Below, piece by piece: positions 8,129 through 24,640 of a DNA stretch of 64,000 bases. The translations under genes were made by a program, and so were the position numbers. The first letter of the stretch is position 1, and each line of letters starts with the position of its first letter. The stretch is taken from positions 124,001 to 188,000 of the forward strand of contig NZ_JADDXW010000007.1 in the NCBI RefSeq assembly GCF_017183135.1, given 5' to 3'. The notes beneath the pieces were generated by a model, which was given only the letters and a program-made list of their open reading frames with translations, was not told the DNA's origin and ran no database searches. Source of the DNA: Aurantimonas marina. Its GTDB lineage: Bacteria; Pseudomonadota; Alphaproteobacteria; Rhizobiales; Rhizobiaceae.

Positions 8129-9382
8129 ATGAAAGCCCGGCCTCCGCGCGTCCTCATCTATAGTCACGACACGTATGGGCTGGGGCATCTGCGCCGCTGC
8201 CGCGTCATCGCGCAGGCGCTGGTTGCCCACCGTCCCGATATCGCCATCCTGCTCGTCGCCGGTTCCCCGGTGGTCGGCTCGTTCAGCTTTCCGCCGCAGG
8301 TGGATTTCATCCGCGTGCCGGGGGTCGTCAAGCTCGGCGCGGACAATTACGCGCCCTCCAATCCCGGCCTGTCGATCGAGGATCTCACCGAAATCCGCAG
8401 CGCCGTCATCAAGAAGACGGCGGAGATTTTCGACCCCGACATCTTTCTGGTGGACAAGGAGCCGCTGGGCATGCGCGGCGAGGTGGAGGCTTCGCTACGC
8501 CATCTGAAAGCCACCGGCGCGCGCCTCGTCCTCGGCTTGCGCGACATCATGGACGAGCCGTCCCGGCTGGTCGAGGAATGGACCCGCAAGGATGCCTTCG
8601 TCGCTCTCGAGGAGTTCTACGACGACATCTGGATCTATGGTCTGCCGCAGATCTGCGATCCGCTGGAGGGCATCGGCGTGTCGGAAAGGGTGCGTCAGAA
8701 GGCGGTATTCACCGGCTATCTGCACAGGGCGGACGAGCCGTCCGGCGCCCTGCCCGATCGTATCCGGATCGGCGAGAGACCCTTTGTCCTCGTCACCACC
8801 GGCGGCGGCGGCGACGGGACGATGCTGGTCGACTGGGTCCTGCGCGCCTATGAAAGCGACCCCGCGATCGGGGTTCGTGCCAAGATCGTCCTCGGCCCCT
8901 TCATGGAGCCGGGCTTCCAGGCGGATTTCCAGCGTCGGGCGGCAAAGCTCCACAGCGTCGACGTGATCACCTTCGCGGCCAGTATCGAGCCGCTGTTCGA
9001 GCGGGCCGAAGGCGTCGTCGCCATGGGCGGCTACAACACCTTTTGCGAGATTCTGTCCTTCGACAAACCGGCCGTCGTCGTGCCGCGCCGGCAGCCGCGG
9101 CTCGAGCAATATATCCGTGCTTCCCAGGCCGAGAATCTGGGCCTGTTGACGATGCTGCTCGACGACCGCCTCGACGACGCGTCGGCGATGGCGGACGCCA
9201 TCCGGGCGCTGCCGGGACAGGCCAGGCCAAAATCCGCGGCAATTCCCGGCATTCTCGACGGGCTGAAAACGGTCTGCGAGAGGGCCGACGCGTATATCGC
9301 CGCCGGTCGGACGGAGAAGGACGACGCCTACGACTGGAAGGGTGCGAGGCTGCGTCCGATCTCCAAGGCCGGGATGGCATGA
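8129..9382 (+). CDS. MurG-like glycosyltransferase (first of a trio)
   Basis: The 417-residue protein has an N-terminal Rossmann domain opening with LIYSHDTYGLGHLRRC, the G-x-G-H-x-R signature of MurG/GT28-type (GT-B fold) transferases. The C-terminal donor-binding half includes VTTGGGGDG, VVAMGGYNTFCE and VVVPRRQPRLEQYIRA, in the places where MurG binds the UDP-sugar. No membrane segment is seen. AGGAG lies 8 bases before the ATG. Its stop overlaps the start of the next gene (ATGA), giving a three-gene glycosyltransferase unit up to 11693. Acceptor and sugar are unknown. Confidence 0.85.
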   Translation: MKARPPRVLIYSHDTYGLGHLRRCRVIAQALVAHRPDIAILLVAGSPVVGSFSFPPQVDFIRVPGVVKLGADNYAPSNPGLSIEDLTEIRSAVIKKTAEIFDPDIFLVDKEPLGMRGEVEASLRHLKATGARLVLGLRDIMDEPSRLVEEWTRKDAFVALEEFYDDIWIYGLPQICDPLEGIGVSERVRQKAVFTGYLHRADEPSGALPDRIRIGERPFVLVTTGGGGDGTMLVDWVLRAYESDPAIGVRAKIVLGPFMEPGFQADFQRRAAKLHSVDVITFAASIEPLFERAEGVVAMGGYNTFCEILSFDKPAVVVPRRQPRLEQYIRASQAENLGLLTMLLDDRLDDASAMADAIRALPGQARPKSAAIPGILDGLKTVCERADAYIAAGRTEKDDAYDWKGARLRPISKAGMA

Positions 9383-10536
9383 GGATCGCATTCTATGCGC
9401 CGATGAAATCACCGCGCGATTCGCATCCATCCGGGGATCGCACCGTGGCGCGTGGCCTCGTCGAGGCGTTGCGGCTTGCCGGACACGATGTCGTGGTGCC
9501 TTCCGATTTTCGCAGCTACGATCGGGGCGACCCGTTGCGGCAGGCCCGCATCGAACGGCTCGGCCGGCGGCTCGGCGACCGAGTCATGCGTCGGAATGAC
9601 GGCCGCGCGCCGATCGACTTCTGGTTCACCTACCATCTCTATCACAAGGCCCCGGACTGGCTGGGGCCACGCGTCGCCACGGATCTCGGCATTCCCTATG
9701 CGGTCGCCGAGGCGTCGGTGGCCGAGAAGCGCAAGGGCGGGGCCTGGCACAGGGGGTATGAGGCGAGCCTTGTGGCGCTGGCGCGAGCCGACCTCGTTGT
9801 CGGTCTCAATGCGACCGATCGGCCCGGCGTGCTGTCCCGGATGCGGCCGGAGGCGCGCTATCTGGAGCTCGCGCCATTCCTCGATATCAGGCCCTATGCC
9901 GAGGCAGTGGCGAACCGGGAGACCACGCGGGCGCGGCTCGCAGCGCGCCACGGCCTCGCCGGCGACCGTCCCTGGCTGCTCACCGTCGCGATGATGCGCC
10001 AGGACCAGAAGCTCGTCTCGTACCGCTTGCTCGCCAAGGCTCTGCAATCGCCCGGCGATGCCCAGTTTCATCTGATCGTCGTCGGTGCCGGACCGGCGGA
10101 GGAACAAGTGCGCGAGGCCTTCGCCGCGCTCGGTTCCCGTGTCACCTTTCACGGCGCGGCCGACCCTGCCGAGATGCCGGCCCTTTATGCCGCGGCCGAC
10201 CTCTATGTCTGGCCGGCCATCAAGGAATCCTGGAGCATGGCCTTTCTTGAGGCACAGGCTGCGGGCGTGCCCGTTGTCGCCGGCCGCAGCGGCGGCGTTC
10301 CAGGCGTTGTCGCGGACGGAGTGACCGGATGCATCGCCCCGGAAGGGGACGCCTCTGGCTTTGCCGACGGCGTTCGGCGTCTGCTCGATCCAGCCGTGCG
10401 AGAGCGAATGGGCCGCGCCGCTCGGCAGCGCATGCTCGCGCACCACGACCTCGCCGTGGCGTCGAAGACGCTCGATGACGCGCTGGGAGAAACGCTCGCC
10501 CGCAACCGGCCCGGGCCCTTACGAAAGATGATGTGA
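9379..10536 (+). CDS. Glycosyltransferase family 4 protein
   Basis: A 385-residue GT-B glycosyltransferase. The ATG at 9379 overlaps the previous stop (ATGA) and opens MRIAFYAPMKSPRDSHPSGD, a typical GT4 N-terminus; the frame is open further upstream but that part has no family character. The donor half contains LTVAMMRQDQKLVSYRLLAKAL, VVGAGPAEE, YAAADLYVWPAIKESWSMAF and EAQAAGVPVVAG, the usual E-x7-E region binding the nucleotide-sugar. It lies between two MurG-like genes, translationally coupled to both, so the three probably act in sequence on one glycan. Confidence 0.88.
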   Translation: MRIAFYAPMKSPRDSHPSGDRTVARGLVEALRLAGHDVVVPSDFRSYDRGDPLRQARIERLGRRLGDRVMRRNDGRAPIDFWFTYHLYHKAPDWLGPRVATDLGIPYAVAEASVAEKRKGGAWHRGYEASLVALARADLVVGLNATDRPGVLSRMRPEARYLELAPFLDIRPYAEAVANRETTRARLAARHGLAGDRPWLLTVAMMRQDQKLVSYRLLAKALQSPGDAQFHLIVVGAGPAEEQVREAFAALGSRVTFHGAADPAEMPALYAAADLYVWPAIKESWSMAFLEAQAAGVPVVAGRSGGVPGVVADGVTGCIAPEGDASGFADGVRRLLDPAVRERMGRAARQRMLAHHDLAVASKTLDDALGETLARNRPGPLRKMM

Positions 10537-11693
10537 TGCGGGTTCTCTTTCACGTGCAGCATCTTCTGGGCGTCGGGCATCTGCGGCGCGGCGAGCTTCT
10601 CGCCAACGCCATGGCCGGGCGCGGCATGGCGGTGACCATCGCGCTCGGCGGCATGCCGGTGCCCGAAATGCCCTTTGCTGGCGCCGATGTCGTGCAACTG
10701 CCTGCGACCAAGCTGAAGGGCGCCGATTTCAAGGTGCTCTACGACGCCGACGGCAAGCCGGTGACGGATGCCTGGCGCGTGGCGCGGCGTGACGCGCTGT
10801 TGCATCTTTACGAAGAAATCCGGCCCGATATCGTCCTCCTGGAGATGTATCCCTTTGGGCGCTGGCGCTTCGGTTTCGAGCTCCTGCCGCTGCTCGAACG
10901 CGCCGCCCGCGACAAGCCGCGGGTCAAATGCGTCACCTCGGTGCGCGATATATTGGTCGCGACCAAGCATCCCGAACGGGCCGAGAAGGGCGCGGCGATC
11001 GCGCGCGCGCATCTGGACGCCGTGCTCGTCCATTCCGATCCCACGCTCTTCGCCTTCGAGGAGACCTATCCGCATGCGGAGGAACTCGCCGATCTCATTG
11101 GCTATACCGGCTACGTGACCGAGCCGGCCGAGCGGGTTCCCGGAGCCTCGAATGGCGAAGTGATCGTCTCGGCCGGTGGCGGAGCGGCCGCCGGTGGCCT
11201 GATGCGGGCCGCCATGGCTGCCCGTCCGTTGACGCCCCTTGCCGACCGGGTCTGGCGTTTCTTCACCGGGCCGCGCTTTCCCGCCGAGGCCTTCGAGGAA
11301 TTGTCCGCGATGGCGGACGAGCGGACCGTCGTCGCTCGTTTCGCGCCGAATTTCCAGGAACTGCTCGACGGCTGCGCCCTGTCGATTTCGCAGGCCGGCT
11401 ACAACACGGTGATGAATCTCCTGCGGGCCGAGGCGCCCGCCGTGGTGGTGCCCTATGACGAGGGCGAGGAGACCGAGCAATGGCACCGCTCGCAGCGCAT
11501 GCGGGACATGGGGTTCCTGTCCGTCGTCAAGGCGTCCGAACTCTCCCCGCCGACGATGGCGGCGGCGATCGCCGAGGCGCTGGAGCGACCAGCCGCCAAA
11601 CGTCCGTCGATCGATCTCGATGGCGCGGAGCATGCGGCACGGATGATCGAGGCGCTTGGCAAAGGCGATGATCGCAGCGGGATGACCCGGTAG
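10536..11693 (+). CDS. MurG-like glycosyltransferase (third of the trio)
   Basis: The 385-residue product begins MRVLFHVQHLLGVGHLRRGE, with the same G-x-G-H-x-R signature as the gene at 8129, and has the donor-site segments SAGGGAAAGG, ISQAGYNTVMNLL and VVVPYDEGEETEQWHRS. ATG 10536 overlaps the previous TGA (TGATG); an in-frame GTG three bases earlier is possible. The two MurG-like proteins of this group are related in layout but far from identical, suggesting two steps rather than a recent duplication. There is no signal peptide or membrane helix. Confidence 0.85.
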   Translation: MRVLFHVQHLLGVGHLRRGELLANAMAGRGMAVTIALGGMPVPEMPFAGADVVQLPATKLKGADFKVLYDADGKPVTDAWRVARRDALLHLYEEIRPDIVLLEMYPFGRWRFGFELLPLLERAARDKPRVKCVTSVRDILVATKHPERAEKGAAIARAHLDAVLVHSDPTLFAFEETYPHAEELADLIGYTGYVTEPAERVPGASNGEVIVSAGGGAAAGGLMRAAMAARPLTPLADRVWRFFTGPRFPAEAFEELSAMADERTVVARFAPNFQELLDGCALSISQAGYNTVMNLLRAEAPAVVVPYDEGEETEQWHRSQRMRDMGFLSVVKASELSPPTMAAAIAEALERPAAKRPSIDLDGAEHAARMIEALGKGDDRSGMTR

Positions 11694-11768
11694 ATGGCCT
11701 CCATGCGATCGAGAAATTGCATGACTTCGGCTGCGGGATCATGGTGCAATCGATTCGATGGCCACTCT

Positions 11769-11805
11769 GCCTCCCGCCGGGAAGTGGCGGGAGGCGCATA
11801 GGAGG
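11769..11805 (+). promoter_or_regulatory. 10-bp hairpin immediately before an AGGAGG ribosome binding site
   Basis: GCCTCCCGCC (11769-11778), a 7-base loop and GGCGGGAGGC (11786-11795) form a perfect stem. The ribosome binding site AGGAGG lies at 11800-11805, six bases before the GTG at 11812. The upper arm includes CCTCCC, which could alternatively pair with AGGAGG. A role in translation control of the double-ATPase gene is possible. No T-run follows, so it is not a canonical terminator for the upstream operon. Confidence 0.5.
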
Positions 11806-11811
11806 ATGGGC

Positions 11812-13770
11812 GTGGCGAGCGAGACGGCGATACTGGAACGCCCCATGTCGGATAGTCTGGAAACCAGCCCGTGCGACGCCTCCGCGCTTCTGTCAATCGA
11901 ATCCCTGTCGGTCGAGTTCCGTTCGATGGCCGGCATGGTAAGGGCGGTCAACGGCCTGTCGATGACGATTGGCGCCGGGCAAACCGTCGCGCTGGTCGGG
12001 GAATCCGGTTCCGGCAAGACCGTAACCTCGCAGGCGATCCTTGGAATCTTGCCGAAGGGCGCCCTGATCACCGGCGGCCAGATCCTATTCCGCGACCCTC
12101 TGCAGGGCGTCGTCGATCTCGCGGGCCTATCGCCGAGGAGTTCTCGCTTTCGGGCGATCCGCGGCCAATCCATCTCCATCGTCTTTCAGGAGCCGATGAC
12201 CTCCTTCTCGCCGCTCCATACGCTCGGCGACCAGATCGGCGAAGTGCTCGAAGTGCACGGGCGCGGCAGCGGCGCGGAAGTCCGCGAGCGCACGATCGAG
12301 ACGCTACGGCTGGTGCGGTTTCCCGAACCGGAGCGGGCGCTGAAATCCTACCCGTTCGAATTGTCGGGCGGGCTACGGCAACGGGCGATGATCGCGATGG
12401 CGCTGATCTGCAAGCCGGCGCTGCTGATCGCCGACGAGCCTACGACCGCCCTCGACGTCACCTTGCAGGCCCAGATTCTCAAGCTCCTGCGCGACATGCA
12501 GGCCGAACTCGGCATGGCCGTTTTGCTGATCACCCACGATCTCGGCGTGGTCGCCAATCTTGCCGAGGAAGTGGTCGTCATGCACCACGGCAAGGTCATG
12601 GAGTCCGGTTCCGCGACGGCGATTTTCGCGCGCCCGCAGCACCCCTATCTGATTTCGCTGATGAAGGCGGTTCCCGATCTCGACCGGGAAGAGGCGCCAC
12701 GCCTCAAGCCGATCCGCGAGATCAAGGTCGATGCCGAGGCACTGTTCACGCGGGAATCGGTGGGCGTGCCCGGCGAAGCGCTGCTTGAACTCAAGGGGCT
12801 CGGCAAGAGCTTTTCCCGGCGTGGCGACAAACGTCTTTTCTCGCGGGCGCCAACGCCGGGTGTGCATGCGCTCAAGGATGTGTCCTTGACCGTTCGCCGC
12901 GGCGAGTGTCTCGGTCTCGTCGGCGAATCCGGTTCCGGCAAGACGACGCTGGCGCGCGCCATCATGCGTGCCGTGACGGTGGATTCCGGTTCGATGGTGT
13001 TCAACACCCAGTCCGGGCCTGTCGACCTCGTTAACGCCGACCGCGCTGAACTTTTCGCGGTTCGCAACTGCCTGCAATATGTCTTCCAGGATCCGTTCTC
13101 CTCGCTCGATCCGCGCATGACCGTCGGCGCGATCCTGGCCGAACCGTTCGAGATCCATCGCAAGAGCGGCGGGTCCGAGAAGCAGGCGCGGATCGAGCGG
13201 CTGTTGGCAGCGGTGGGACTGGAAGCGCAATACGCCAATCGCTATCCGCACAGCTTCTCCGGCGGCCAGCGCCAGCGGATCGGCATCGCGCGGGCCCTAG
13301 CTTTGCAACCGGAATTGCTCATCTGCGACGAACCGGTAGCCGCTCTCGACGTTTCGGTTCAGGCGCAGATTCTCAACCTGTTGAAGGACCTGCAGCGCCT
13401 CTGTGGGCTCACCTACCTGTTCATCTCCCACAATCTGGCGGTCGTGAATTACGTCGCCGATCGTATCGCAGTGATGTGCGACGGCGAGATCGTCGAGCTC
13501 GCGCCGCGCCGGGAGTTGTTTCGTGCGCCGCTGCATCCCTACACGCAGATGCTCATGCAAGCGGTGCCGCATGCGGATCCCTCGCGGCCGCTCGACTTCG
13601 CCCGTATCCCCTCGGCCGGCGAGTCCGGCCGGCGCGAATGGCCGGAGCCGTTCACCGTTGTCGAGGGGATCGAACGGCCGCTGCTGGAGGCCCGGCCGGA
13701 TCATTTCGTGCGTGCGGCCAATCTCGAATTCCTGACCGCCATGTCCGCCGCCCCGCCAACGGCAGGCTGA
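11812..13770 (+). CDS. Oligopeptide-type ABC transporter, fused double ATP-binding protein
   Basis: About 652 residues form two complete Opp/Dpp-type ATPase domains in one chain, like YejF or GsiA. Each half has Walker A GESGSGKT, a signature (LSGGLRQ, then FSGGQRQR) and an intact Walker B ([12 protein letters not shown] and [12 protein letters not shown]), with an oligopeptide-transporter tail after each ([25 protein letters not shown]). I place the start at GTG 11812 because AGGAGG is six bases upstream; ATG 11758, 11806 and 11845 are alternatives. No permease gene adjoins it; the matching permeases and binding protein are on the other strand at 19093-23221. The next gene starts 1 bp after its stop. 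Confidence 0.9.
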
Positions 13771-13771
13771 G

Positions 13772-16477
13772 ATGGCGGTGCACGACAGCCTCGACGAAAG
13801 CGTCTTCCGCTACGTCTGGCGGCACACGCGCCGGCAACAGCTCTGGCTGTTCTTCGTTCTGCTGGTCTCGCTGCCGTTCTATTATCTGACGCTCGATCTG
13901 CCGAAACGCATCGTCAACGGCCCGATCCAGGGCGAATGGCAGCCAGGCAAGACCGAAACGATCTTCGAGGTAATCCTGCCGGTTCCGGACTTTCTCGGCG
14001 GCGGGACAGTCGCCCTGTTCGACGGGGTCGAATTCGACCGGTTCGGCGTTCTCGTCAGCCTCAGCCTGACTTTCCTGTTTTTCGTCGTCGTGAACGGGCT
14101 CTTCAAGTTCTATCTGTCGAACTACAAGGGCCAGCTCGGCGAGCGGCTGCTCCGCCGCCTGCGCTATCAACTGGTCGATCGGGTGCTGCGGTTTCCGACC
14201 GGCCGCTTCAAGCAAATCCGCGGGCCCGAGATCGCGTCGATGATCAAGGACGAGACCGAGCCAGTCGGCGGTTTCGGCGGTAGCGCGTTCGCCGATCCGG
14301 CGCTCCTGCTCAGTCAGGCGCTGACGGCTCTCGTTTTCATCTATCTGCAAAACATCTGGTTGGGCATGGTGGCGGGCGCCATCGTGCTCGTCCAGCTTAT
14401 CCTGATCCCTCAGATGCGCCGCCGCCTCATCGTTCTCGCCCGCGCACGCCAGTTGACGGCGCGGCTGCTGTCTGGCCGAATCGGCGAGATCGTCGAAAGC
14501 ATTCCCTCGATCCGCACCAACGATACTTCCAACTGGGAGCGCGCCGAACTCGGCAGCCGCCTCGGCAAGATCCTCTGGATTCGCTATGATTTCTTTCGGT
14601 GGAAGTTCCTCACCAACTTCGTCAACAATTTGCTCGCCCAGATCACGCCCTTCATCTTCTATCTCGTTGGCGGTTATTTCGTCATTGTCGGACGGCTCGA
14701 CATCGGGCAGCTCGTCGCGGTGATCGCGGCCTACAAGGATTTGCCCGGACCGCTCAAGGAACTGATTACCTGGGATCAATTCCGCGTCGACGTTCAGTCC
14801 AAATATTCGCAAATCCGCGAGCAGTTCGCGCTGGGAAATCTGCTCTCGCCGACAATCCATGCGGTATCTTATGAGGAACCACCGCGAATCGGCGGTGATA
14901 TCTCCATCGTCGGTTTGCGGATCGCCGACGATGCGGGCAACGACCTGTTGGAGCCGACGAGCTTGCGAGTTTCAGCGGGCGAGGCGCTTGCCGTCGTCGG
15001 ACCGGTCGGAGGCGGCGGCGAATACCTCGCCGAGGCGCTGGTCCGGCTGGTGGATGTTGCCGGAGGACGCATCAGTATCGACGGGCATGCCCTGGATGGC
15101 TTGCCGGATTCCTTCGTCGGGCGCCGCATCGCCTATGCGGAGGCCGGCCTCTACTTTCCCAGAATGTCGGTTCGCGAGGCGCTGGTCTACGGCCTGCGCC
15201 ACGCCCCGCTGATCCGCGAGAAACGGCGCGGACGCGAGGAGGCGATCCGGCTCGAGGAGGCGCGAAAGTCCGGCAATATCGACCTCGATATCCGGGACGA
15301 CTGGATCGACTACAAGGCGGCGGGTGTCGATGGGCCGGAGGCGTTGACGCAGCGTCTTGCCGAGGTGCTGGAGATTGCCGGGCTGGGGCTCGACATCTCG
15401 CGGCTCGGACTGCGCAACCGGCTGCCGTCCGACCTGCCGGATGAGGTGACCAAGCGTATCCTCCATGCGCGGCAGCATTTTCGCGCCTGTCTCTCGGAGG
15501 GCGGCGACGAGGAGTATTTCGAGTCTTTCCACGCGGAGCGCTATTCCGACTACGCCACGCTGTTCGAAAATCTCGTCTTCGGAATTGCCCTCTCCGAGGC
15601 CATAGAGGGGACCCCGCTTGCCGCGCGGCCGCAGATGCGAGCGGTTCTCAAGCAAACTGGGCTCGATCGGACACTGTTCGACATGGGCCGGCAGATCGCC
15701 GAGACCCTTATCGAGATTTTCGGGGACCTTTCTCCCGACAATCCGCTGATGGACAGTGTCGACCTGATCTCGCCCGACGACGTCGATCTTTACCGTTCCA
15801 CGCTTCGCCGTGTCGCTGGGGGCGGCCAGGTGTCGGACGAGGACCGCTGCGCCCTGCAGGAACTCGCCTTCGGCTATATCGAACCGCGCCATCGCATGGG
15901 CCTCCTCGACGAGGACATCAAGGCGGTGGTTCTTCGCGGCCGGGACCGGTTCCGTGAAGGCCTCGATCCGGACCTGGCCCAGGCTGTCTCCCTCCATTCG
16001 CCCGAATCGGTCAACCACGCGGCGAGCTTCCAGGACAACGTTCTGTTCGGCCGCGTCGTCGACCGCTACGCCGAAGCTTCGACGCGGATCAACGAAGTGC
16101 TGCTGGAGACGCTGCGCGAGACCGGTCTGTCCGACGTGGTATTCGAGATCGGGCTCGATTTCGACATGGGTAGTGGCGCCAAGCGTCTGTCCTCCGGCCA
16201 GCAGCAGAAGCTGGCGTTGGCTAGAGCGCTGCTCAAGCGCGCCGACCTGTTCGTCCTCAACCGGCCGATTTCCACCCTTGACGGCGACAGCCAGCGGGCG
16301 ACAATTGAGCGGGTCCTTGCATCGCGCGAGACTCTCGGTGCTGAACGGCAGACGATTTTCTGGGTCTTGAGTCATGCCGAGCATGCGGAACTGTTCGATC
16401 GGACGGTCGAATTCCGGGACGGCCGGATGACGACCTCGCAGCGCAAGGTCAGTCGCGCGATCGACGAGCCGGCCTGA
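13772..16477 (+). CDS. Exporter-like ABC protein with degenerate nucleotide-binding domain
   Basis: A 901-residue protein with an exporter-type membrane domain (hydrophobic segments near 20-40, 85-110, 170-215 and 285-325) and a C-terminal ABC domain. The ABC domain keeps the signature LSSGQ (806-810), the D-loop STLD and the switch histidine H868. Walker A, however, reads GPVGGGGEY (410-418), with the lysine replaced by G416 and Ser/Thr by E417. Walker B reads LFVLNRP, with Asp replaced by N830 and catalytic Glu by R831. About 395 residues separate Walker A from the signature, against roughly 100 normally, so an insertion of nearly 300 mainly charged, helical residues is present. ATP hydrolysis is unlikely. 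It begins 1 bp after the double ATPase and leads the cyclic-nucleotide gene group. Confidence 0.85.
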   Translation: MAVHDSLDESVFRYVWRHTRRQQLWLFFVLLVSLPFYYLTLDLPKRIVNGPIQGEWQPGKTETIFEVILPVPDFLGGGTVALFDGVEFDRFGVLVSLSLTFLFFVVVNGLFKFYLSNYKGQLGERLLRRLRYQLVDRVLRFPTGRFKQIRGPEIASMIKDETEPVGGFGGSAFADPALLLSQALTALVFIYLQNIWLGMVAGAIVLVQLILIPQMRRRLIVLARARQLTARLLSGRIGEIVESIPSIRTNDTSNWERAELGSRLGKILWIRYDFFRWKFLTNFVNNLLAQITPFIFYLVGGYFVIVGRLDIGQLVAVIAAYKDLPGPLKELITWDQFRVDVQSKYSQIREQFALGNLLSPTIHAVSYEEPPRIGGDISIVGLRIADDAGNDLLEPTSLRVSAGEALAVVGPVGGGGEYLAEALVRLVDVAGGRISIDGHALDGLPDSFVGRRIAYAEAGLYFPRMSVREALVYGLRHAPLIREKRRGREEAIRLEEARKSGNIDLDIRDDWIDYKAAGVDGPEALTQRLAEVLEIAGLGLDISRLGLRNRLPSDLPDEVTKRILHARQHFRACLSEGGDEEYFESFHAERYSDYATLFENLVFGIALSEAIEGTPLAARPQMRAVLKQTGLDRTLFDMGRQIAETLIEIFGDLSPDNPLMDSVDLISPDDVDLYRSTLRRVAGGGQVSDEDRCALQELAFGYIEPRHRMGLLDEDIKAVVLRGRDRFREGLDPDLAQAVSLHSPESVNHAASFQDNVLFGRVVDRYAEASTRINEVLLETLRETGLSDVVFEIGLDFDMGSGAKRLSSGQQQKLALARALLKRADLFVLNRPISTLDGDSQRATIERVLASRETLGAERQTIFWVLSHAEHAELFDRTVEFRDGRMTTSQRKVSRAIDEPA

Positions 16478-16525
16478 GGGGATACGGGTAACGATGATTC
16501 GGACGATTGCGGGCAGAGGGACGAC

Positions 16526-16999
16526 GTGACGCTTCTGAAATCCGAAATGGATCTTCTGCGGTCGGTCCCGATCTTCGCCGGCATCGAGCCGAGCCGGTTG
16601 AAGCTGATTGCCTTTACCGCCGATTCGATCGCCTACCGCGCCGGACAGGTGCTGGTCCGGCAGGGGCAGCCGGGAGACGCGGCTTATGTGCTGGTGGAGG
16701 GTGAGGCGGAGGTGTCGGTGGAGACGGAATCCGGTGACTATGTGGTCGCGACACTCGGATCCGGCGATGTCGTGGGCGAGATATCGATCCTTTGCGATTC
16801 TCCGCGAACGGCCACGGTGACCGCCAGCACCGACGTGTCGGCGCTGAGGGTGCGCAAGGATTCGTTCCTGCAGCTTCTGCGCCAGTTCCCGGAGATCGCG
16901 GCGGAGGTGATGCGCACCCTGGCTGAACGCCTGACCCACACCAACGAGGAACTCGTCCGGGCGCGCAATCTGGCAGCGTCACGGGATGACGACGCTTGA
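16526..16999 (+). CDS. Stand-alone cyclic-nucleotide-binding domain protein
   Basis: The 157-residue protein is a single CRP-type cyclic-nucleotide-binding domain (about 12-135) with no DNA-binding domain. The phosphate-binding cassette is intact: G84-E85 (VVGEISILCDSP) contacts ribose and R94 (PRTATVTA) the cyclic phosphate in known relatives, so it should bind cAMP or cGMP. The C-terminal helix (residues 118-150) could pack on a partner, as in regulatory subunits. The start is GTG at 16526, 48 bp after the ABC gene; its TGA overlaps the TTG start of the next gene. It probably senses the product of the cyclase encoded two genes downstream. Confidence 0.88.
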   Translation: MTLLKSEMDLLRSVPIFAGIEPSRLKLIAFTADSIAYRAGQVLVRQGQPGDAAYVLVEGEAEVSVETESGDYVVATLGSGDVVGEISILCDSPRTATVTASTDVSALRVRKDSFLQLLRQFPEIAAEVMRTLAERLTHTNEELVRARNLAASRDDDA

Positions 17000-17850
17000 C
17001 CCGCTTCCAGCTGACGATCTGGGGCGCGCGCGGCAGCATTCCCGCGCCCGCCGCCGCCAACACCCGCTTCGGCAGCGACACGAGCTGTATCGAGGTCCGC
17101 TGCGGCGACCATGTTCTGGTGCTCGATGCGGGAACGGGGGTCGTCGGCTGCGGCCGCAAGCTCTGCTATGAGGGCGTGCGGGACCTCGACATTCTTTTCA
17201 CCCACTGCCACTTCGACCATATAATGGGCCTGCCGTTCATGACTCCGCTGTACACGGAGGAGGCCGTGGTGCGGCTTCACGCCGGGCACTTCCTCGATGA
17301 AACCACCTGCCGCCGCATGGTCGAGCGTTTCATGCGCCCACCCTATTTTCCGGTAACGCCGAAGCAGTTCACCGCGCGCATCGACTATCGCGACTTTCGT
17401 CCGCCAGAGGTTCTGGAACTCGCCGACGACATCCATGTCCGCACGGTCCGGCTCAACCATCCGAACGGCGCCGTCGGGTATCGGATCGAGTATGGGGGGC
17501 GGTCGTTCTGCTACATCACCGATACGGAGCACGAATCCGGCAAGCCGGACGCCGCGATCCTGAATTTCATCGCTGGCTCGGATCTGATGATCTACGATTG
17601 TATGTATACGGACGAGGAATTTCCCACGTTCCAAGGCTTCGGCCACTCGACCTGGCAGGAGGGTGCACGGCTTTGCCGCGCGGCCGGCGTGGCAAATCTC
17701 GTCATCTTCCATCATGATATATCGCGAACCGACGCTTGGCTGGAGGCTCTCGCAATAACAGCGCGGGAGGCGTTCCCCGGAGCGATCGTGGCGCGCACGG
17801 GCCTCACTCTGGACATCGGTGAAGGCGTGCGAATCCCGGAAGGCGGCTGA
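16996..17850 (+). CDS. MBL-fold metallohydrolase, PhnP-like
   Basis: The 284-residue protein is a metallo-beta-lactamase-fold hydrolase. The first metal motif is THCHFDH (H70, H72, D74, H75); further likely ligands are H155 (LNHPNG), D176 (ITDTEHE), H217 (GFGHST) and H240 (IFHHD). The opening WGARGSIP, with SDTSCIEV and LDAGTG, matches the COG1235/PhnP group, some members of which cut cyclic phosphodiesters. Set between a cyclic-nucleotide sensor and a cyclase, it could be the phosphodiesterase of the group; that is inference. The start is a TTG at 16996 overlapping the previous stop (TTGA); the ATG at 16986 is in another frame. Confidence 0.87.
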   Translation: MTRFQLTIWGARGSIPAPAAANTRFGSDTSCIEVRCGDHVLVLDAGTGVVGCGRKLCYEGVRDLDILFTHCHFDHIMGLPFMTPLYTEEAVVRLHAGHFLDETTCRRMVERFMRPPYFPVTPKQFTARIDYRDFRPPEVLELADDIHVRTVRLNHPNGAVGYRIEYGGRSFCYITDTEHESGKPDAAILNFIAGSDLMIYDCMYTDEEFPTFQGFGHSTWQEGARLCRAAGVANLVIFHHDISRTDAWLEALAITAREAFPGAIVARTGLTLDIGEGVRIPEGG

Positions 17851-17851
17851 G

Positions 17852-19084
17852 ATGGGCCTGGCAAAGCAGGTTGACGACTGGCTGATCCGCGAGGCACTCG
17901 GCAATCCCAATCTGGAGGAGCTCTTCCATCAGCTTTGCCTGAGGCTGAGCGGCATCGGAATCCCGATCACCAGGGCCCGGCTGAACTGGCCAACCCTGCA
18001 TCCGCTGTTTCGAGCCGAAATGATCAAATGGCACCGGGACGAGGATGCGGTTCTCGAGCATTTCCATCATCAGGACGCCAACACCGAGGCCTGGCAGAGA
18101 AGCCCGCTGCGCTACATGCTGGAAGCGGACCTTCCCGTTCTTCGGCGGCGGTTGACCGGACCGGGCCAGCTTCTCGACTTCCCGCTGTTCGAGGAACTCG
18201 CGGCCGAGGGCTACACCGACTACATCGCGCTTTCGACCGAATTTTCGCAACCCACGACATTCATGGATATGCCCACGGCCGGAATCTTCGTCATTTGGGC
18301 GAGCGATCGTTCTTCCGGGTTCACCGACGAGGACATTGGCGTTCTGCAGGCGATCCAGCAGACCTTCGCTCTCGTGTCCAAGACGATCATTCAGTCGCGG
18401 ATCACGACCAACATCGTCGAGACCTATCTTGGACGTCAGGCTGGCCATAGCGTGCTCAGCGGCAATATCCGCCTCGGCGACGGGGCGACGACGAGGGCCC
18501 TGGTCTGGTATTCTGATCTGCGCGACTCCACCAGGCTAACCGGTCGGCTCGAGAGCGCCGCATTCTTGCGGCTTCTCAACGACTATTTCGAATGCGCCGC
18601 GCGTCCGGCGATCCGGGCCGGCGGCGAGGTCCTGGCCTTCATCGGCGATGCCGTGCTGGTGATCTTTCCGCTGGACGACGTGGCGGATGCCTCGGCCCTT
18701 AGCGTCAAGGTGTTGGAGGCGGTCGGTGAATCGTTCAAGATGCGCGAGGAGGCCAACGCCGCCCGGCGCGAACGCGGCCTGGAGGTCATGGATTTCGGCA
18801 TCGGCCTCAATATCGGCAACGTCGTCTTCGGCAATATCGGCGTGCCCGAGCGCCTGGCCTTCACCGTGATCGGACCGACGGTCACCGAGGTCGAGCGCAT
18901 CGAAAAACTGACCAAGACGATGGAGCTCAGCGTCCTCGCCAGCGCCGAGGTCGCCGCGCTCTTGCCCGAACGCTGGGATTCGGTCGGCGTCCATGCCCTC
19001 AACGGCATCGAGCGGCGTATGGAGCTATTCACGCCGCGTCTGGCGGAGGCCGTGCCGCTCCGCGCTGCCGGCGCGGGTGAATAA
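17852..19084 (+). CDS. Soluble class III nucleotide cyclase with altered active site
   Basis: The 410-residue cytoplasmic protein has an N-terminal sensory-like region (about 1-190, reminiscent of GAF-type domains in rhizobial cyclases) and a C-terminal class III cyclase domain (about 208-395). Metal-binding D222 (YSDLRDST) and D266 (FIGDAV) are present, as is R349 of the transition-state pair. The purine-selecting lysine position is A262 and the usual asparagine is T345 (GPTVTEVERIE), so activity or substrate may differ from ordinary adenylate cyclases. ATG 17852, with GGAAGG just upstream, is preferred over GTG 17819, which would overlap the previous gene. It closes the four-gene group and is convergent with the permease at 19093, with only 8 bp between stops. 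Confidence 0.88.
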   Translation: MGLAKQVDDWLIREALGNPNLEELFHQLCLRLSGIGIPITRARLNWPTLHPLFRAEMIKWHRDEDAVLEHFHHQDANTEAWQRSPLRYMLEADLPVLRRRLTGPGQLLDFPLFEELAAEGYTDYIALSTEFSQPTTFMDMPTAGIFVIWASDRSSGFTDEDIGVLQAIQQTFALVSKTIIQSRITTNIVETYLGRQAGHSVLSGNIRLGDGATTRALVWYSDLRDSTRLTGRLESAAFLRLLNDYFECAARPAIRAGGEVLAFIGDAVLVIFPLDDVADASALSVKVLEAVGESFKMREEANAARRERGLEVMDFGIGLNIGNVVFGNIGVPERLAFTVIGPTVTEVERIEKLTKTMELSVLASAEVAALLPERWDSVGVHALNGIERRMELFTPRLAEAVPLRAAGAGE

Positions 19085-19092
19085 TCGATGCG

Positions 19093-20247
19093 CTAATGAT
19101 GCGGGTCGACCGCGTCGCGCAACCCATCGCCGACGAAGCTGAAAGCGAGCACGGTCAGGACGACCGGCAGCATCGGCAAGAGCAGCCAGGGATAGAGCGC
19201 CACCGCCTCGATGTTCTGCGCTTCCGACAACAGGACGCCCCAACTGGTGATCGGCGGACGGAGACCCAGCCCGAGGAAGCTCAGAGCCGTCTCGGCGAGA
19301 ATCATCGTCGGGATCGACAGCGACGCCGAGGCGATCAGATGGCTCATGAAATTAGGCAGGAGGTGCCGGAAGATGATCCGCCGCGGGCTCGCGCCGAGCA
19401 TTTCGGCAGCGACGACGAAATCCTCCTCGCGCAGCGCGAAAAGCTTCGAGCGCACCGCGCGCGCCAGCCCCGGCCAGTCGAGCAGCGCCAGGATCAGGGT
19501 AATGCCGAAATAGATCAGCAGCGGGCTCCATGTGACCGGGAGCGCCGCCGAAAGGGCGAGCCAGAGCGGCAGTTCCGGGATCGACCGCAGGATTTCCGTC
19601 GTCCGCTGCACGACGGAGTCGACCCAGCCGCCGAAATAGCCTGCGAGACCGCCGATGGTAATGCCCAGAAGAAAGCTCAGCGTCACGCCGACGAGGCCGA
19701 CGGTCAGCGATATGCGCGCGCCGTAGGAAATGCGCGAAAACATGTCCCGGCCGAGACGGTCGGTGCCCATCAGGAAGAATGTGCCTTCCTCGGGAGGGCA
19801 GATAAAATGGAACCGGGCTTTCGCCATGCCCCAGAATTCATAAGGGTCGCCCTGGCAGAAGAACCGCAGCGGCAGCGGCCGGGATGTGTCTTCGCTGTAT
19901 TCGCGCTTCAGCGTCTCCAGATTGAGATTGTAGTCGAGGCGATAGACGAAGGGGCCGACGAACTGGCCTTCGTGGATGAGATGCAGCGGCTGCGGCGGAG
20001 CGAAGATAAAGTCGGTGTTGCGGGTCTGGAGTTCGTAGGGCGCGATCATCTCGATGATGACGATCGCGGCGTAGCTGAACAGAAGGAAGGCGAGCGAGAC
20101 GACCGCCACGCGGTGGCGCAGGAAGCGCCACCAGATCAGCTTCGTCTGGGAGGCCTCCATATAGGCCTGGGAGACCGTCGAGCCTGCGGCGACCGTCGCC
20201 TCCGGATCGAACGGTTCGCGCGAGACGAAATGGGGGGTGGGGCTCAT
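19093..20247 (-). CDS. Oligopeptide-type ABC transporter permease (OppC/DppC family)
   Basis: The 384-residue inner-membrane permease has one N-terminal membrane helix (about residues 42-66), a periplasmic insertion of roughly 100 residues containing CQGDPYEFWG, then the OppC core beginning GTDRLGRDMFSRISYGAR. The ATPase-contact (EAA) loop is EMLGASPRRIIFRHLLPN. The start at 20247 (MSPTPHFVSREPF) overlaps the upstream permease stop by 4 bases; the open frame continues further but antisense to that permease. It is the last gene of a binding protein-permease-permease operon that lacks its own ATPase. Confidence 0.92.
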   Translation of the reverse strand: MSPTPHFVSREPFDPEATVAAGSTVSQAYMEASQTKLIWWRFLRHRVAVVSLAFLLFSYAAIVIIEMIAPYELQTRNTDFIFAPPQPLHLIHEGQFVGPFVYRLDYNLNLETLKREYSEDTSRPLPLRFFCQGDPYEFWGMAKARFHFICPPEEGTFFLMGTDRLGRDMFSRISYGARISLTVGLVGVTLSFLLGITIGGLAGYFGGWVDSVVQRTTEILRSIPELPLWLALSAALPVTWSPLLIYFGITLILALLDWPGLARAVRSKLFALREEDFVVAAEMLGASPRRIIFRHLLPNFMSHLIASASLSIPTMILAETALSFLGLGLRPPITSWGVLLSEAQNIEAVALYPWLLLPMLPVVLTVLAFSFVGDGLRDAVDPHH

Positions 20248-21242
20248 CGCGCCGTACTCCGGCCGAGGCGAATACGCGGATCGAGTATCGCCAGCAGGAT
20301 GTCGGAGACGAACATGCCGACCACCGTCAAGAGCGCCAGGAACATCAGGAACGAGCCGGCCAGATACATGTCCTGACTGCGCAGCGAGGAGAGCAGCATC
20401 GGCCCGGTGGTCGGCAGTGACATCACCGCTGAAATGATCACCGAGCCGGAGACGATCTGCGGCAGCAGGCTGCCGAGATCGGCGATGAACGGGTTGAGCG
20501 CCATCCGCAGCGGGTATTTGAGCAGAAGCCGGCGCTCCGGCAGCCCCTTGGCGCGGGCGGTGACGACATATTGCCGGTTGAGCTCGTCGAGGAGGTTGGC
20601 CCGTAGCCGCCGGATCATGCCGGCCGTACCCGCCGTGCCGATCACCAGCACCGGCACCCACAGATGCGACAGGACCGAGCCGACCTTGGCGAGCGACCAC
20701 GGCGCGTCGATATATTCCGGCGCCATCAGTCCGCCGATCGAGGTGCCGAACCAGATATTGGCGAGATAAAGCAGGATCAGCGCGAGCAAGAAGTTCGGCG
20801 TTGCCAGGCCGAGGAATCCCAGGACGCTGAGCCCGTGGTCGCCCCAGCTGTATTGGTGCGTGGCCGAATAGATGCCTATCGGAAACGAGACGAGATAAAC
20901 GAAGATGACTGTCGCCACATTGAGCAGGATGGTCATCGGCATCCGGTCGCCGACGACGTCCGCGACCGGCTGATTGTATTCGAAGGAATAGCCGAGATCG
21001 CCCTGCACGAGGCCGGTCACCCAGACCACATATTGCTGCCAGAGCGGCTTGTCCAAGCCGTATTGCTCGCGCAGGAACGCGATCTTGTCGGCGGTGACGT
21101 TTTCGCCCTGGGCCTGGATTTCGGCGATGTAGCTGGTCAGGTAGTCGCCGGGGGGCAGCTGGATGATAATGAAGATCAGAACGCTGATCGCGAGCAGCGT
21201 CCAGGCCATGGTGACGAGACGGCTGGCGAAATAGCGGATCAC
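20244..21242 (-). CDS. Oligopeptide-type ABC transporter permease (OppB/DppB family)
   Basis: About 332 residues with the DppB layout: an N-terminal helix (RLVTMAWTLLAISVLIFIII) followed by the PGDYLTSY segment, a second block of helices, and the coupling loop RAKGLPERRLLLKYPLRMALNP. GTG at 21242 overlaps the binding-protein stop (GTGA) and gives the usual N-terminus VIRYFASRL; a longer start at 21275 would overlap that gene by 37 bases. It pairs with the OppC-like permease to form the membrane channel. Confidence 0.92.
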   Translation of the reverse strand: MIRYFASRLVTMAWTLLAISVLIFIIIQLPPGDYLTSYIAEIQAQGENVTADKIAFLREQYGLDKPLWQQYVVWVTGLVQGDLGYSFEYNQPVADVVGDRMPMTILLNVATVIFVYLVSFPIGIYSATHQYSWGDHGLSVLGFLGLATPNFLLALILLYLANIWFGTSIGGLMAPEYIDAPWSLAKVGSVLSHLWVPVLVIGTAGTAGMIRRLRANLLDELNRQYVVTARAKGLPERRLLLKYPLRMALNPFIADLGSLLPQIVSGSVIISAVMSLPTTGPMLLSSLRSQDMYLAGSFLMFLALLTVVGMFVSDILLAILDPRIRLGRSTAR

Positions 21243-23221
21243 GAGGGCGAACCTGCAGCCACGTTCGACTGGCAATCGAACCAGAACGTATCGGGATGGT
21301 AGACGCCGAAATAGGCGCCGGGATTATAGTTGTAGACGCCACGCTCCGGCACATTCCGCAGCGCGTCCGAAACGACAACGATCTGATCGACGCCTGCGAC
21401 AATGCCGATCGTGTAGACCTCATCGGCCGAGATCTGCAGCATCTTGTCCCAGATCGCCGCGAGCTCCGCGGTGTCGGTCGTCCGCATCCATTGCCGGCGA
21501 AGTTCGATGAGGCGGCGGATGCCGGCCAGGTCCGGGCCGTCGCCGGGCGCCTCGCCGCCGGTGCCGCCGGTTTCGACCCACATACCGAAGCCGGGCCATT
21601 GCATCTGTTCGGCCGTGGAGGGCGCCAGTTCAGCCGGGTCCGTGGCCGGGGTGGGCAGCCCATTATCGAGCCCCGTCCAGACCGACATCAGGGTCGAGCC
21701 GGCCTTGATGCGGTTGCGGAAGATTTCCCGCTGGGATTCGCGTATCAAAAGATCGATCCCGATCTTGCGCCAATCGTCGCGGACGAGCTGCAGGACGTCG
21801 GACTGTTCGCTGCTTTCTCCCGCCGTCTCGACGACGATGCGGATCTCGCGCCCATCCGGCAGTCGCCGCAGGCCGCCATGGGTGGCGGGCTTTAGGCCGA
21901 GGTTGTCCAGAAGCAGGTTCGCCTTGTCGGGGTCGTAGGCGGCCCAGCGGGAACCCAGTTCCGGAGCGAACAGCGGGGAGTTTGGAAGCACCGTATTGGC
22001 GCCCGGCTCGGCGAGGCCATAGAAGATTGCCTTGTTGATGTCGGCCCGGTTGATGGCGAGCGAGAGGGCCCGGCGGAACTCGGCGTCGCGGATCACCTCG
22101 CGCCAGACCGGGTCCGTCACATTGAGATTGGGATAAAGCGCGACATGGGAGCCGCGTCCCGATTCCCAGCGCCGGACCTCGTACCCGCTGCGTTTCTCGC
22201 CGCGTTTCAGGAACGGGTAGTTGGGGAAGCTGAGATAGGCGGCCTGGAGATCGGCCTCGCCGTTGGCGACCTTGGCCGGTATCAGATCGGAATTGGAGAT
22301 CGTCAGGGTGACGCGGTCGATATAGGGAAGTTGCCGGCCTTTCAGATCGACACGGTAAAAATAGGGATTGCGCTCGAAGGTCAGCCGCTCGGCCGGTGGT
22401 TTCGTCGCCAGCACCCAGGGCTGTACGGTTGGCAAATCCGGATTGTCGTTGCGATGGCTGCGATCCTTCTTGAAGTGCAGCGCGGCCCAGTTGCGCTGGC
22501 CGGCGGCCTCGATCTTGGCCTTCAGCTTTTCCGGGTCGGCATATTTCTCGTGATACTTCTTGAGATAATGGGCGGGCCGGAAGATCTCGAAGGGGAGAGC
22601 CGCGGCAAGCGAGGCGAGGAAGTTCGGATTGGGTCCCGTCCAGGCATAGCGGACCTCGTAAGGGCCGGGAAAGGTGACCTCCGGTTCCTCTCCATCGACC
22701 AGCAGCTCCGCGGGGACGCCGAACTTGGCGATGTCCCGATTCTTCGCCATGTCCTCCCAGAAATAGCGAAAGTCCTCCGAGGTGAACGGCGCACCGTCCG
22801 ACCATTTCATGCCGGGCCGCAGCCGGAAGGTGAAGATGCGCCCTTCTTCGACGTCGTAGCTCTCGGCGATATCCGGCACGATCTCGTAGCTCTCGTCGTA
22901 GCCGACGAGGCGCGCATAGCCGAAGACCGACAGGATCCGCGTATCCTTGGCGCTGGCGCCGAGCATCCGCAGCGTACCGCCGGGGCGATCGGCCGGGCAG
23001 GCGCTGTCGACCGGCAGGGCGAGTGGCGTTTGCGGCAGACGCTCCGTCACCGGCGGCAACGTGCCGTCCGCGACCTTGGCGGCGAGGGAGGCCGGTTCCG
23101 CGGCGAGGGTCTGGGCGTGGAGTGGGGTGGCAGAGCCGCCCGTCATGTCGATCGACAGGGCCACGACTGCCGCGAAAATGCTCCGCGAGCCAATCCATCG
23201 TCGCGCTGTCGGTCGGTCCAT
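21239..23221 (-). CDS. ABC transporter substrate-binding protein (SBP_bac_5 family)
   Basis: The 660-residue periplasmic protein has a signal peptide (hydrophobic stretch FAAVVALSIDMTGG, cut probably after LHAQT) and the family-5 fold. Landmarks are PDIAESYDVEEGRIFTFRLR, GMKWSDGAPFTSEDFRYFW and FRRALSLAINRADINKAIFY. At 660 residues it is longer than classic OppA/DppA, and like the large YejA-type proteins. It is the first gene of the leftward transporter operon, divergent from the glycosyltransferase at 23417. Given the surrounding glycan genes, an oligosaccharide or glycopeptide ligand is as plausible as a peptide. Confidence 0.92.
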   Translation of the reverse strand: MDRPTARRWIGSRSIFAAVVALSIDMTGGSATPLHAQTLAAEPASLAAKVADGTLPPVTERLPQTPLALPVDSACPADRPGGTLRMLGASAKDTRILSVFGYARLVGYDESYEIVPDIAESYDVEEGRIFTFRLRPGMKWSDGAPFTSEDFRYFWEDMAKNRDIAKFGVPAELLVDGEEPEVTFPGPYEVRYAWTGPNPNFLASLAAALPFEIFRPAHYLKKYHEKYADPEKLKAKIEAAGQRNWAALHFKKDRSHRNDNPDLPTVQPWVLATKPPAERLTFERNPYFYRVDLKGRQLPYIDRVTLTISNSDLIPAKVANGEADLQAAYLSFPNYPFLKRGEKRSGYEVRRWESGRGSHVALYPNLNVTDPVWREVIRDAEFRRALSLAINRADINKAIFYGLAEPGANTVLPNSPLFAPELGSRWAAYDPDKANLLLDNLGLKPATHGGLRRLPDGREIRIVVETAGESSEQSDVLQLVRDDWRKIGIDLLIRESQREIFRNRIKAGSTLMSVWTGLDNGLPTPATDPAELAPSTAEQMQWPGFGMWVETGGTGGEAPGDGPDLAGIRRLIELRRQWMRTTDTAELAAIWDKMLQISADEVYTIGIVAGVDQIVVVSDALRNVPERGVYNYNPGAYFGVYHPDTFWFDCQSNVAAGSPS

Positions 23222-23416
23222 CGATGCGTCCTCATGGCGTCGTCGCTATCAGTAAGGTTCGAGCGCCGAAGTTTTGTCAAATGACGGTTTGATCGCCGGC
23301 GGCCGCGAGGCGCTTCGCCTTGCAGGCTGGCGGTTCGTCGCCTAGATGCCGCGATGTCCCGTCTCGCGAGCGATGTCGCGATGCCGCCGCCGGCGAACCG
23401 GAGAATCAGCGATTCG

Positions 23417-24640
23417 ATGCCTCTGCGTATCGCCACACTCGTCAAAGGCTATCCGCGTCTGTCGGAGACCTTCATCGCCCAGGAAATCGCGGGGCTGGAG
23501 GATCGCGGCGTCACACAGCTGATCGTCTCGCTGCGCCAGCCGGCGGAAGCGCGGGTTCATCCCGTCCATCGCCGCATCAAGGCGGACGTCCTTTATCTTC
23601 CCGAGTATCTCAAGGACGATCCGCCCCGGGTTAGCGCCGGTCGCGATTTCGCCGAGCGTCAGCCGGGCTATGCCTTGGCGCGGCGCCTGTTCGAGGCCGA
23701 TCTTGAGCGCGACCCGACGGCCAACCGCTATCGCCGTTTCGGCCAGGCCTGCGTCCTCGCCCGCGAGCTTCCGGCCGACATCGACTGGCTGCATACCCAC
23801 TATCTGCACACCCCGGCCTCCGTCGCCCGCTATGCGGCGGCGATTCGCGGCCTTGGCTGGTCGTTCTCGGCGCACGCCAAGGACATTTGGACGACGCAGC
23901 CGTGGGAACTGACCGAAAAGCTCGCATCGGCGGCTTTCGGCGTCACTTGCACCAAGGTCAATCTCGACTATCTGCGCTCGCTTGCGGCGACACCGCGCGC
24001 GGTCGAACTCGTCTATCATGGCCTCGATCTCTCCGAGATCCGGCCGGTCGACCGAAATATCCGGCGAAGCGGTCCGTTCCGCATCGTCTCGGTCGGCCGC
24101 ACCGTCGAGAAGAAGGGCTATGGCGACCTCATCCGCGCGCTGGCTCGGCTGAAGGACCGAGACTGGAGCTTCGAGCATGTCGGCGGCGGGCCATTGACGG
24201 CAAAGCTCCAGGCACAGGCCGACAAGGCCGGCATTGGCGAGCGCATCGTCTGGCATGGCAGCCGCGAGCGCGAGCATGTATTTGCCCTGCTGGCGGGCGC
24301 CGACCTGTTCGTGCTGCCGTCCCGCATCGCCAAATCCGGCGATCGCGACGGCCTGCCCAACGTGCTGATGGAAGCGCAGGCGCACCGGCTGCCGGTTGTC
24401 TCGACGCGGGTCTCGGCGATTCCGGAACTCATCGAGGACGAACGGACGGGACTGCTTGTCGCCGAGCGCGACCCAAAGGCGCTGGCCGCAGCGATGGGGC
24501 GGCTGATGGACGATCCGCAGCTCGCCGATCGTCTCGGCCGGGCCGGCGAGGTCAAGGTTCGCCGGCAGTTTTCGCCGGAGCCCGGCATCGATCGTGTCGC
24601 GCGGCTGTTGACCGAGGCGGCCGAGCGCGCCGCCGCGTGA
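23417..24640 (+). CDS. Glycosyltransferase family 4 protein (colanic-acid type)
   Basis: A 407-residue GT4-type transferase that opens MPLRIATLVKGYPRLSETF, the usual start of the WcaL/colanic-acid-like group; an in-frame ATG at 23354 would add 21 residues without family character. Other landmarks are SAHAKDIW, SVGRTVEKKGYGDLI, DGLPNVLMEAQAHRLPVV and STRVSAIPELI (the donor-binding E-x7-E region). Its stop TGA overlaps the GTG of the deacetylase-like gene, so the two are coupled. Together they mirror the deacetylase/glycosyltransferase content at 4.9-11.7 kb and are probably part of the same surface-glycan pathway. Confidence 0.87.
   Translation: MPLRIATLVKGYPRLSETFIAQEIAGLEDRGVTQLIVSLRQPAEARVHPVHRRIKADVLYLPEYLKDDPPRVSAGRDFAERQPGYALARRLFEADLERDPTANRYRRFGQACVLARELPADIDWLHTHYLHTPASVARYAAAIRGLGWSFSAHAKDIWTTQPWELTEKLASAAFGVTCTKVNLDYLRSLAATPRAVELVYHGLDLSEIRPVDRNIRRSGPFRIVSVGRTVEKKGYGDLIRALARLKDRDWSFEHVGGGPLTAKLQAQADKAGIGERIVWHGSREREHVFALLAGADLFVLPSRIAKSGDRDGLPNVLMEAQAHRLPVVSTRVSAIPELIEDERTGLLVAERDPKALAAAMGRLMDDPQLADRLGRAGEVKVRRQFSPEPGIDRVARLLTEAAERAAA

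Follow-up and report, generated by a model that had tools for sequence, protein, structure and literature searches.

An ABC-exporter-fold protein with decayed ATPase motifs, paired with a cyclic-nucleotide sensor in a glycan-gene neighbourhood of Aurantimonas marina

A stretch of 64,000 nucleotides from the genome of Aurantimonas marina (assembly GCF_017183135.1, contig NZ_JADDXW010000007.1, positions 124,001 to 188,000; hereafter the window, whose numbering is used throughout) carries four adjacent genes for a membrane protein with the fold of an ATP-binding cassette (ABC) exporter, a cyclic-nucleotide sensor, a hydrolase of the metallo-β-lactamase (MBL) fold and a class III cyclase. On sequence grounds, the core of this locus is the pair of ABC protein and sensor, and its wider setting, beyond the four genes, is a glycan locus. 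With a confidence just short of an even chance, we propose that the pair forms an ABC unit whose motor has decayed and which, under the control of a cyclic nucleotide, would serve a surface-glycan locus; ligand, gating and glycan role are the parts that we infer. All the parts come from known families; for their combination, an ABC exporter fold that has a decayed motor and is constantly accompanied by a cyclic-nucleotide sensor, we found no description in a limited search of the open-access literature.

The ABC-fold protein and its sensor

The ABC gene (13772–16477, plus strand) encodes 901 amino acids. Pfam recognizes ABC_membrane (6e-13) and ABC_tran (6e-13, split over two stretches), the AlphaFold 2 model (mean pLDDT 83) shows the exporter fold, and Foldseek matches it to TmrAB, MsbA and TAP; all three find the membrane domain and the ATPase domain of an exporter. 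The protein had been called exporter-like in the initial annotation, and the fold bears this out, but the ATPase motifs are decayed. Walker A reads GPVGGGGEYL (residues 410–419, 14999–15028, plus strand), with neither Lys nor Ser/Thr. Further on, the signature LSSGQQQ (806–812) is followed by a Walker B of the form LFVLNRP (826–832; both within 16187–16267, plus strand), in which FVLNRP holds neither Asp nor Glu. The ATPase domain also contains an insertion of about 260 residues (481–740, bounds chosen by us; 15212–15991, plus strand), which carries a duplicate of the helical segment preceding the signature: segment 575–665 resembles 735–812 (hhalign probability 98.7, E 3.8e-16). Between long helices 1 and 2, the model (P0001) has a small element of beta strand (residues 62–88), which probably lies outside the cytoplasm.

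Three sets of loci place these motifs in their family. The near set consists of the window and 80 loci from named genomes, the ones with the highest scores among 540 confirmed matches and so no random sample; nearly all come from the order of the window, the exceptions including the gammaproteobacterium Plasticicumulans and one Cypionkella. The wider set consists of the window and 85 loci of its order, fetched from 95 ABC places outside the window. The remaining ten places are mostly contig-end pieces or second partial copies, and two of them were fetched later. The 85 and the 80 loci make 165 in all, with several contigs common to both. The third set holds 20 loci of alphaproteobacteria outside the order of the window.

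The Walker A Lys is missing from all 81 proteins of the near set, where Ala (39), Gly (34), Thr (4) or Ser (4) stand instead, and the residue after it is Glu or Asp in 78/81. In the same proteins the Walker B Asp has become Asn (81/81) and the catalytic Glu is found in none (0/81), Arg taking its place in 71. Across the wider set the Walker A Lys is missing from 85/86. A canonical Walker A (GxxxxGK[ST]) occurs in the ATPase domain of 0/81 near, 1/86 wider and 0/20 other-order proteins. As a control we used 30 ABC exporters from the same order, a mixture of several exporter groups; the motif is present in 30/30 with motif-aided frames and in 27/30 with motif-blind frames, the other three being sliced off before the motif at contig ends. 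The window protein alone has a chance match, GEWQPGKT, outside the ATPase domain.

Conservation is inverted along the chain. In the near set the membrane part has a mean pairwise identity of 72% and the ATPase pieces 49–53%; in the wider set the values are 53% and 33–34%. The control exporters show the reverse, with 36% in the membrane part and 61% in the ATPase part (36% and 60% with motif-blind frames); the nine controls over the NdvA-type cut-off give 45% and 60%. Its motifs and its conservation set the ABC protein apart from ordinary exporters.

Immediately downstream lies the gene of a stand-alone cyclic-nucleotide-binding (CNB) protein of 157 amino acids (16526–16999, plus strand), in which Pfam finds cNMP_binding (9e-25) and no further domain. 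Its phosphate-binding cassette had been described as intact, with E85 and R94, and this is borne out across the family: the Glu is kept in 159/166 and the Arg in 164/166 aligned rows, the window included. From these two residues we predict that the sensor binds a cyclic nucleotide.

A CNB domain was found by profile beside the ABC protein, or fused to it, at 165/165 loci. The sensor gene lies immediately 3' of the ABC gene and on the same strand at 82/85 order loci and 80/80 named loci, and at the remaining 3/85 the domain lies inside the ABC reading frame (one was checked with Pfam). Among nine long ABC frames scanned, eight have ABC_membrane and cNMP_binding in a single chain, with the sensor at the C-terminus; such chains include those of Azospirillum lipoferum and Ruegeria sp. 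TM1040. In the other orders the sensor adjoins the ABC gene at 17 of the 20 loci and is fused to it at one. We take the pairing at all 165 loci and the natural fusions as the strongest argument that the sensor may act on the ABC protein. Fused rows stand at two or more places of a tree of the ABC proteins, a quick tree with long branches that meet, and the pattern may reflect a single early fusion followed by splits. The only row of 86 with a canonical Walker A (GSGKS), at locus L107 (G072:C40; ABC frame 8988–12125, minus strand), is itself a fusion of ABC protein and sensor; its long branch lies close to the base of this tree, and it may reflect the ancestral state.

Hydrolase, cyclases and glycan genes

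The open reading frames and their Pfam domains confirm the four co-directional genes of the initial annotation, all on the plus strand with successive gaps of 48, −4 and +1 bp. The third gene (16996–17850, plus strand, TTG start) encodes an MBL-fold hydrolase of 284 amino acids (Lactamase_B_2, PF12706, 9e-21) with the motif THCHFDH, and the nine His/Asp positions that we checked are kept in 93/93 sequences. The enzyme had been assigned to the PhnP group. A PhnP-family enzyme is indeed near by fold, but the profile of cyclic-nucleotide phosphodiesterases (NCBIfam NF041851) gives 48.0 bits against 35.4 for PhnP, and two ribonuclease Z profiles give more than either (80.8 bits, cut-off 252; 68.8 bits, cut-off 292.95). 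All these scores lie far under their cut-offs; that of NF041851 is 400 bits, hence the hydrolase is no equivalog of that family, although it is the only match to the model in its genome. In the 4.03 Mb genome nothing exceeds the ribonuclease Z cut-off and the best match is this hydrolase, therefore a role in tRNA processing is possible.

The nearest solved structure is 6kns, both by sequence and by fold, with the PhnP-family enzyme practically level by fold and YhfI near. The hydrolase resembles the atypical class II cyclic-nucleotide phosphodiesterases, among them Rv1339. These are defined by PF12706, the motif [T/S]HxHxDH and kinship to ribonuclease Z, with 6kns as template (PMC9293780), and our enzyme has the domain, the motif, the kinship and the template in common with them. 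Set against that group it falls far short of the NF041851 cut-off, and its phosphodiesterase activity is putative.

The fourth gene (17852–19084, plus strand; ATG start, with an alternative GTG at 17819) encodes a soluble cyclase of 410 amino acids. Its earlier assignment to class III holds: Pfam finds Guanylate_cyc (3e-8), and both metal-binding Asp and the Arg are each kept in 33/33 sequences, the protein and 32 relatives. At the positions that we take to select the base, usually Lys and Asp or Thr, it has A262 and P342; Lys is present in 3/33 and Asp or Thr in 0/33. Therefore the nucleotide cannot be deduced from this cyclase. Within the subfamily (33 sequences) the usual lysine position holds Ser, Ala, Glu or Lys. 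Another class III cyclase of the window (6594–7946, minus strand) has a hydrophobic N-terminus and, by eye, the usual motifs DKYLGD and GDAVN.

The four genes had been read as one signalling circuit, and this stands in part. ABC protein and sensor stay together, and on the scale of whole genomes the hydrolase is linked to both; the order of the four genes does not hold generally. The hydrolase directly follows the sensor at 43/85 order and 33/80 named loci; 27/85 and 30/80 combine the sensor with a hydrolase next to it and a cyclase on the same strand no more than 8 kb away. In the other orders, neither hydrolase nor cyclase was found in the fetched 7 kb or so downstream (0/20), while the same hydrolase profile, as a positive control, finds 92/165 loci. 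Hydrolase and cyclase thus lie apart from the pair in most relatives, and the strict four-gene order is lineage-restricted. Elsewhere in the genome the hydrolase is present in 18/20 of the other-order genomes; in at least eight of these, 14 to 24 kb separate it from the ABC gene.

We followed co-occurrence in samples of 249 genomes of the order, 289 of the class and 299 of the phylum. The E-value cut-offs were 1e-40 for ABC protein and hydrolase and 1e-50 for the glycosyltransferase in the order sample, 1e-50 in the class and phylum samples, and 1e-30 for the sensor set of the order sample and for the hydrolase look-up in the 20 other-order genomes; with the cut-offs used for the samples, weaker homologues count as absent. 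The ABC protein is present in 83/249 genomes of the order, 96/289 of the class and 21/299 of the phylum sample, the last all within the class of the window. A MurG-like glycosyltransferase encoded upstream of it is found in 78/83 genomes with the ABC protein and 1/166 without (Fisher p 2e-57, uncorrected for kinship). The hydrolase, present in 76/249 order genomes, is found in 66/83 and 10/166 (Fisher p 4e-33, likewise uncorrected). Kinship was handled solely by taking one genome per family (52): ABC protein and glycosyltransferase are both present in 23, the ABC protein only in 1, the glycosyltransferase only in 1 and neither in 27, and for the hydrolase the counts are 17, 7, 1 and 27. In the class sample the hydrolase accompanies the ABC protein in 87/96 genomes.

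This glycosyltransferase, with a GT28 C-terminal domain (8129–9382, plus strand), is followed on the same strand by a GT4-type glycosyltransferase (9379–10536), a second MurG-like one (10533–11693) and an Opp/Dpp-type double ATPase (11758–13770) that ends 1 bp ahead of the ABC gene. The same MurG-like type stands just upstream of the ABC gene at 15/20 other-order loci. Beyond the soluble cyclase, on the minus strand, lie OppC- and OppB-like genes (Pfam) and a substrate-binding-protein-like gene (by clustering and the annotation of relatives) (19093–23221), and then another GT4 glycosyltransferase (23354–24640, plus strand) whose top profile, under its cut-off, is EpsE, an exopolysaccharide enzyme. 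A protein of 262 amino acids (4944–5732, plus strand) with no Pfam match looks deacetylase-like by eye and is conserved among these loci.

The ABC protein is 94% identical to that of Aurantimonas marianensis, and a similar neighbourhood of glycosyltransferases, cyclase and Opp-type genes surrounds the ABC gene in many relatives. The Opp-type genes recur close to it in many of them. The ABC protein is also encoded on plasmids of R. johnstonii 3841 (pRL11) and S. meliloti, and on two annotated Rhizobium plasmids the neighbourhood has, in addition, a nucleotide-sugar dehydrogenase and a cyclase. According to PMC11103875, pRL110056 is an O-antigen gene required for root colonisation; it may be a member of this locus.

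A proposed mechanism and its alternatives

We hypothesize that the ABC-fold protein and the sensor, in contact also where they are separate chains, would form one membrane unit serving a locus for the synthesis or export of a surface glycan. In the clade of the window, the ATPase domain would no longer be a normal motor. The cyclases of the locus would produce a cyclic nucleotide that binds the sensor, and the bound sensor would set the conformation of the ABC protein, at least partly. The level of the nucleotide would switch the assembly or passage of the glycan, presumably the one made by the tracking glycosyltransferases, and the MBL enzyme would remove the nucleotide and end the signal. 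A stronger version, in which a ligand-gated ABC protein keeps the exporter fold without an ATP hydrolysis motor, is opened or closed by the sensor and controls passage or polymerization of surface glycans in a large share of alphaproteobacteria, seems unlikely to us.

Several observations weigh against a decayed motor under the control of a dedicated sensor. The first group favours a different reading, which we hold to be rather unlikely: that the ABC protein has kept ATP binding, perhaps with slow hydrolysis, and works as a genuine exporter of a glycan or glycolipid, with the sensor only modulating it. In the wider set the Lys is replaced by Arg in 48/86, Ser/Thr follows in 34/86, the Walker B Asp is retained in 41/86 and the catalytic Glu in 7/86. 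In the other orders the Lys is kept at 16/20 loci, as it is in L107, with Ser/Thr after it in 0/20; the Walker B Asp is present in 5/20 and the Glu in 11/20, both together in two. The window protein itself still has the signature LSSGQ, and the stretch from signature to Walker B remains 67% identical in the near set and 43% in the wider set. The decay, as read from these alignments, is thus graded and strongest within the clade of the window, and in part of the family ATP binding may therefore persist. Against a working exporter stand the complete loss of Lys, Walker B Asp and catalytic Glu in the near set, each in 81/81, and an ATPase part less conserved than the membrane part, opposite to the control exporters.

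The second group concerns the partners. No sensor was found at 2/20 other-order loci. Three genomes of one genus (L238, L239 and L240) keep sensor and hydrolase and have no ABC protein at the cut-off; beside the sensor gene of L238 we saw no obvious new partner. In the class sample the hydrolase is also present in 44/193 genomes that lack the ABC protein. Clusters of glycosyltransferases were found within the fetched stretch at 59/85 order loci, leaving the others without, and the Ruegeria fusion has no annotated glycosyltransferase within 9 kb.

The three genomes of one genus fit the idea that the sensor tethers the hydrolase or a cyclase at the membrane, in a local sink or feedback loop for cyclic nucleotide, with the ABC protein as a mere anchor, and in the window the start of the hydrolase gene overlaps the stop of the sensor gene by 4 bp. 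In those genomes, however, sensor and hydrolase are not adjacent, and in the other orders the hydrolase is never beside a sensor that adjoins or is fused to the ABC protein at 18 of 20 loci. Sensor-ABC fusions exist; sensor-hydrolase fusions were not searched for. We consider such tethering quite improbable. That the genes are ordinary operon neighbours with no functional link, as the lineage-restricted order might suggest, is very hard to reconcile with the pairing at every one of the 165 loci, the fusions and the co-occurrence even of unlinked copies.

Known systems and implications

The ABC protein shares its membrane and ATPase fold with type IV ABC exporters such as TmrAB, MsbA and NdvA, the glucan exporter NdvA being among its solved sequence matches. 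It differs from them in its decayed Walker A and B, in the insertion with its duplicated helical segment and in its cyclic-nucleotide sensor, separate or fused. CFTR and SUR are ABC folds with a degenerate ATP site that are used as a channel or a regulator; each retains a functional site and neither is known to carry a CNB domain, whereas the near set has neither the Lys nor the Walker B Asp-Glu. The solved structures that match the sensor include the CNB domains of the cyclic-nucleotide-gated channels SthK and Mll3241, ranking under those of protein kinases A and G. In these channels, too, a membrane protein is under the control of a soluble domain; here the target is presumed and would be an ABC fold, while theirs is a tetrameric cation channel.

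Some parts recall the Pycsar defence system, in which a pyrimidine cyclase accompanies a killing CNB effector. The window cyclase gives scores with models of PycC, PycTIR is matched by the sensor in its CNB part only, and the fold of the anti-Pycsar protein Apyc1 is similar to that of the hydrolase, at rank 43. Unlike Pycsar, the locus is tied to glycan genes and its ABC protein is found in 96/289 genomes of the class, and the four proteins scanned hold no TIR or other killing domain.

In summary, many alphaproteobacteria carry this ABC-fold protein. In almost every case a cyclic-nucleotide sensor is encoded beside it or is part of its chain, and its gene frequently lies among genes for sugar polymers. 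The decayed motifs, the pairing and this setting suggest a surface-glycan machine that is controlled by a signal and is not an ordinary ATP-driven one. As the ABC gene is present in workable rhizobia, on pRL11 of R. johnstonii 3841 and on plasmids of S. meliloti, the proposal can be tested now. If it is true, an ABC transporter fold would be run by a second messenger and not by ATP turnover, and the class III cyclases of rhizobia and their relatives would have a concrete non-transcriptional target.

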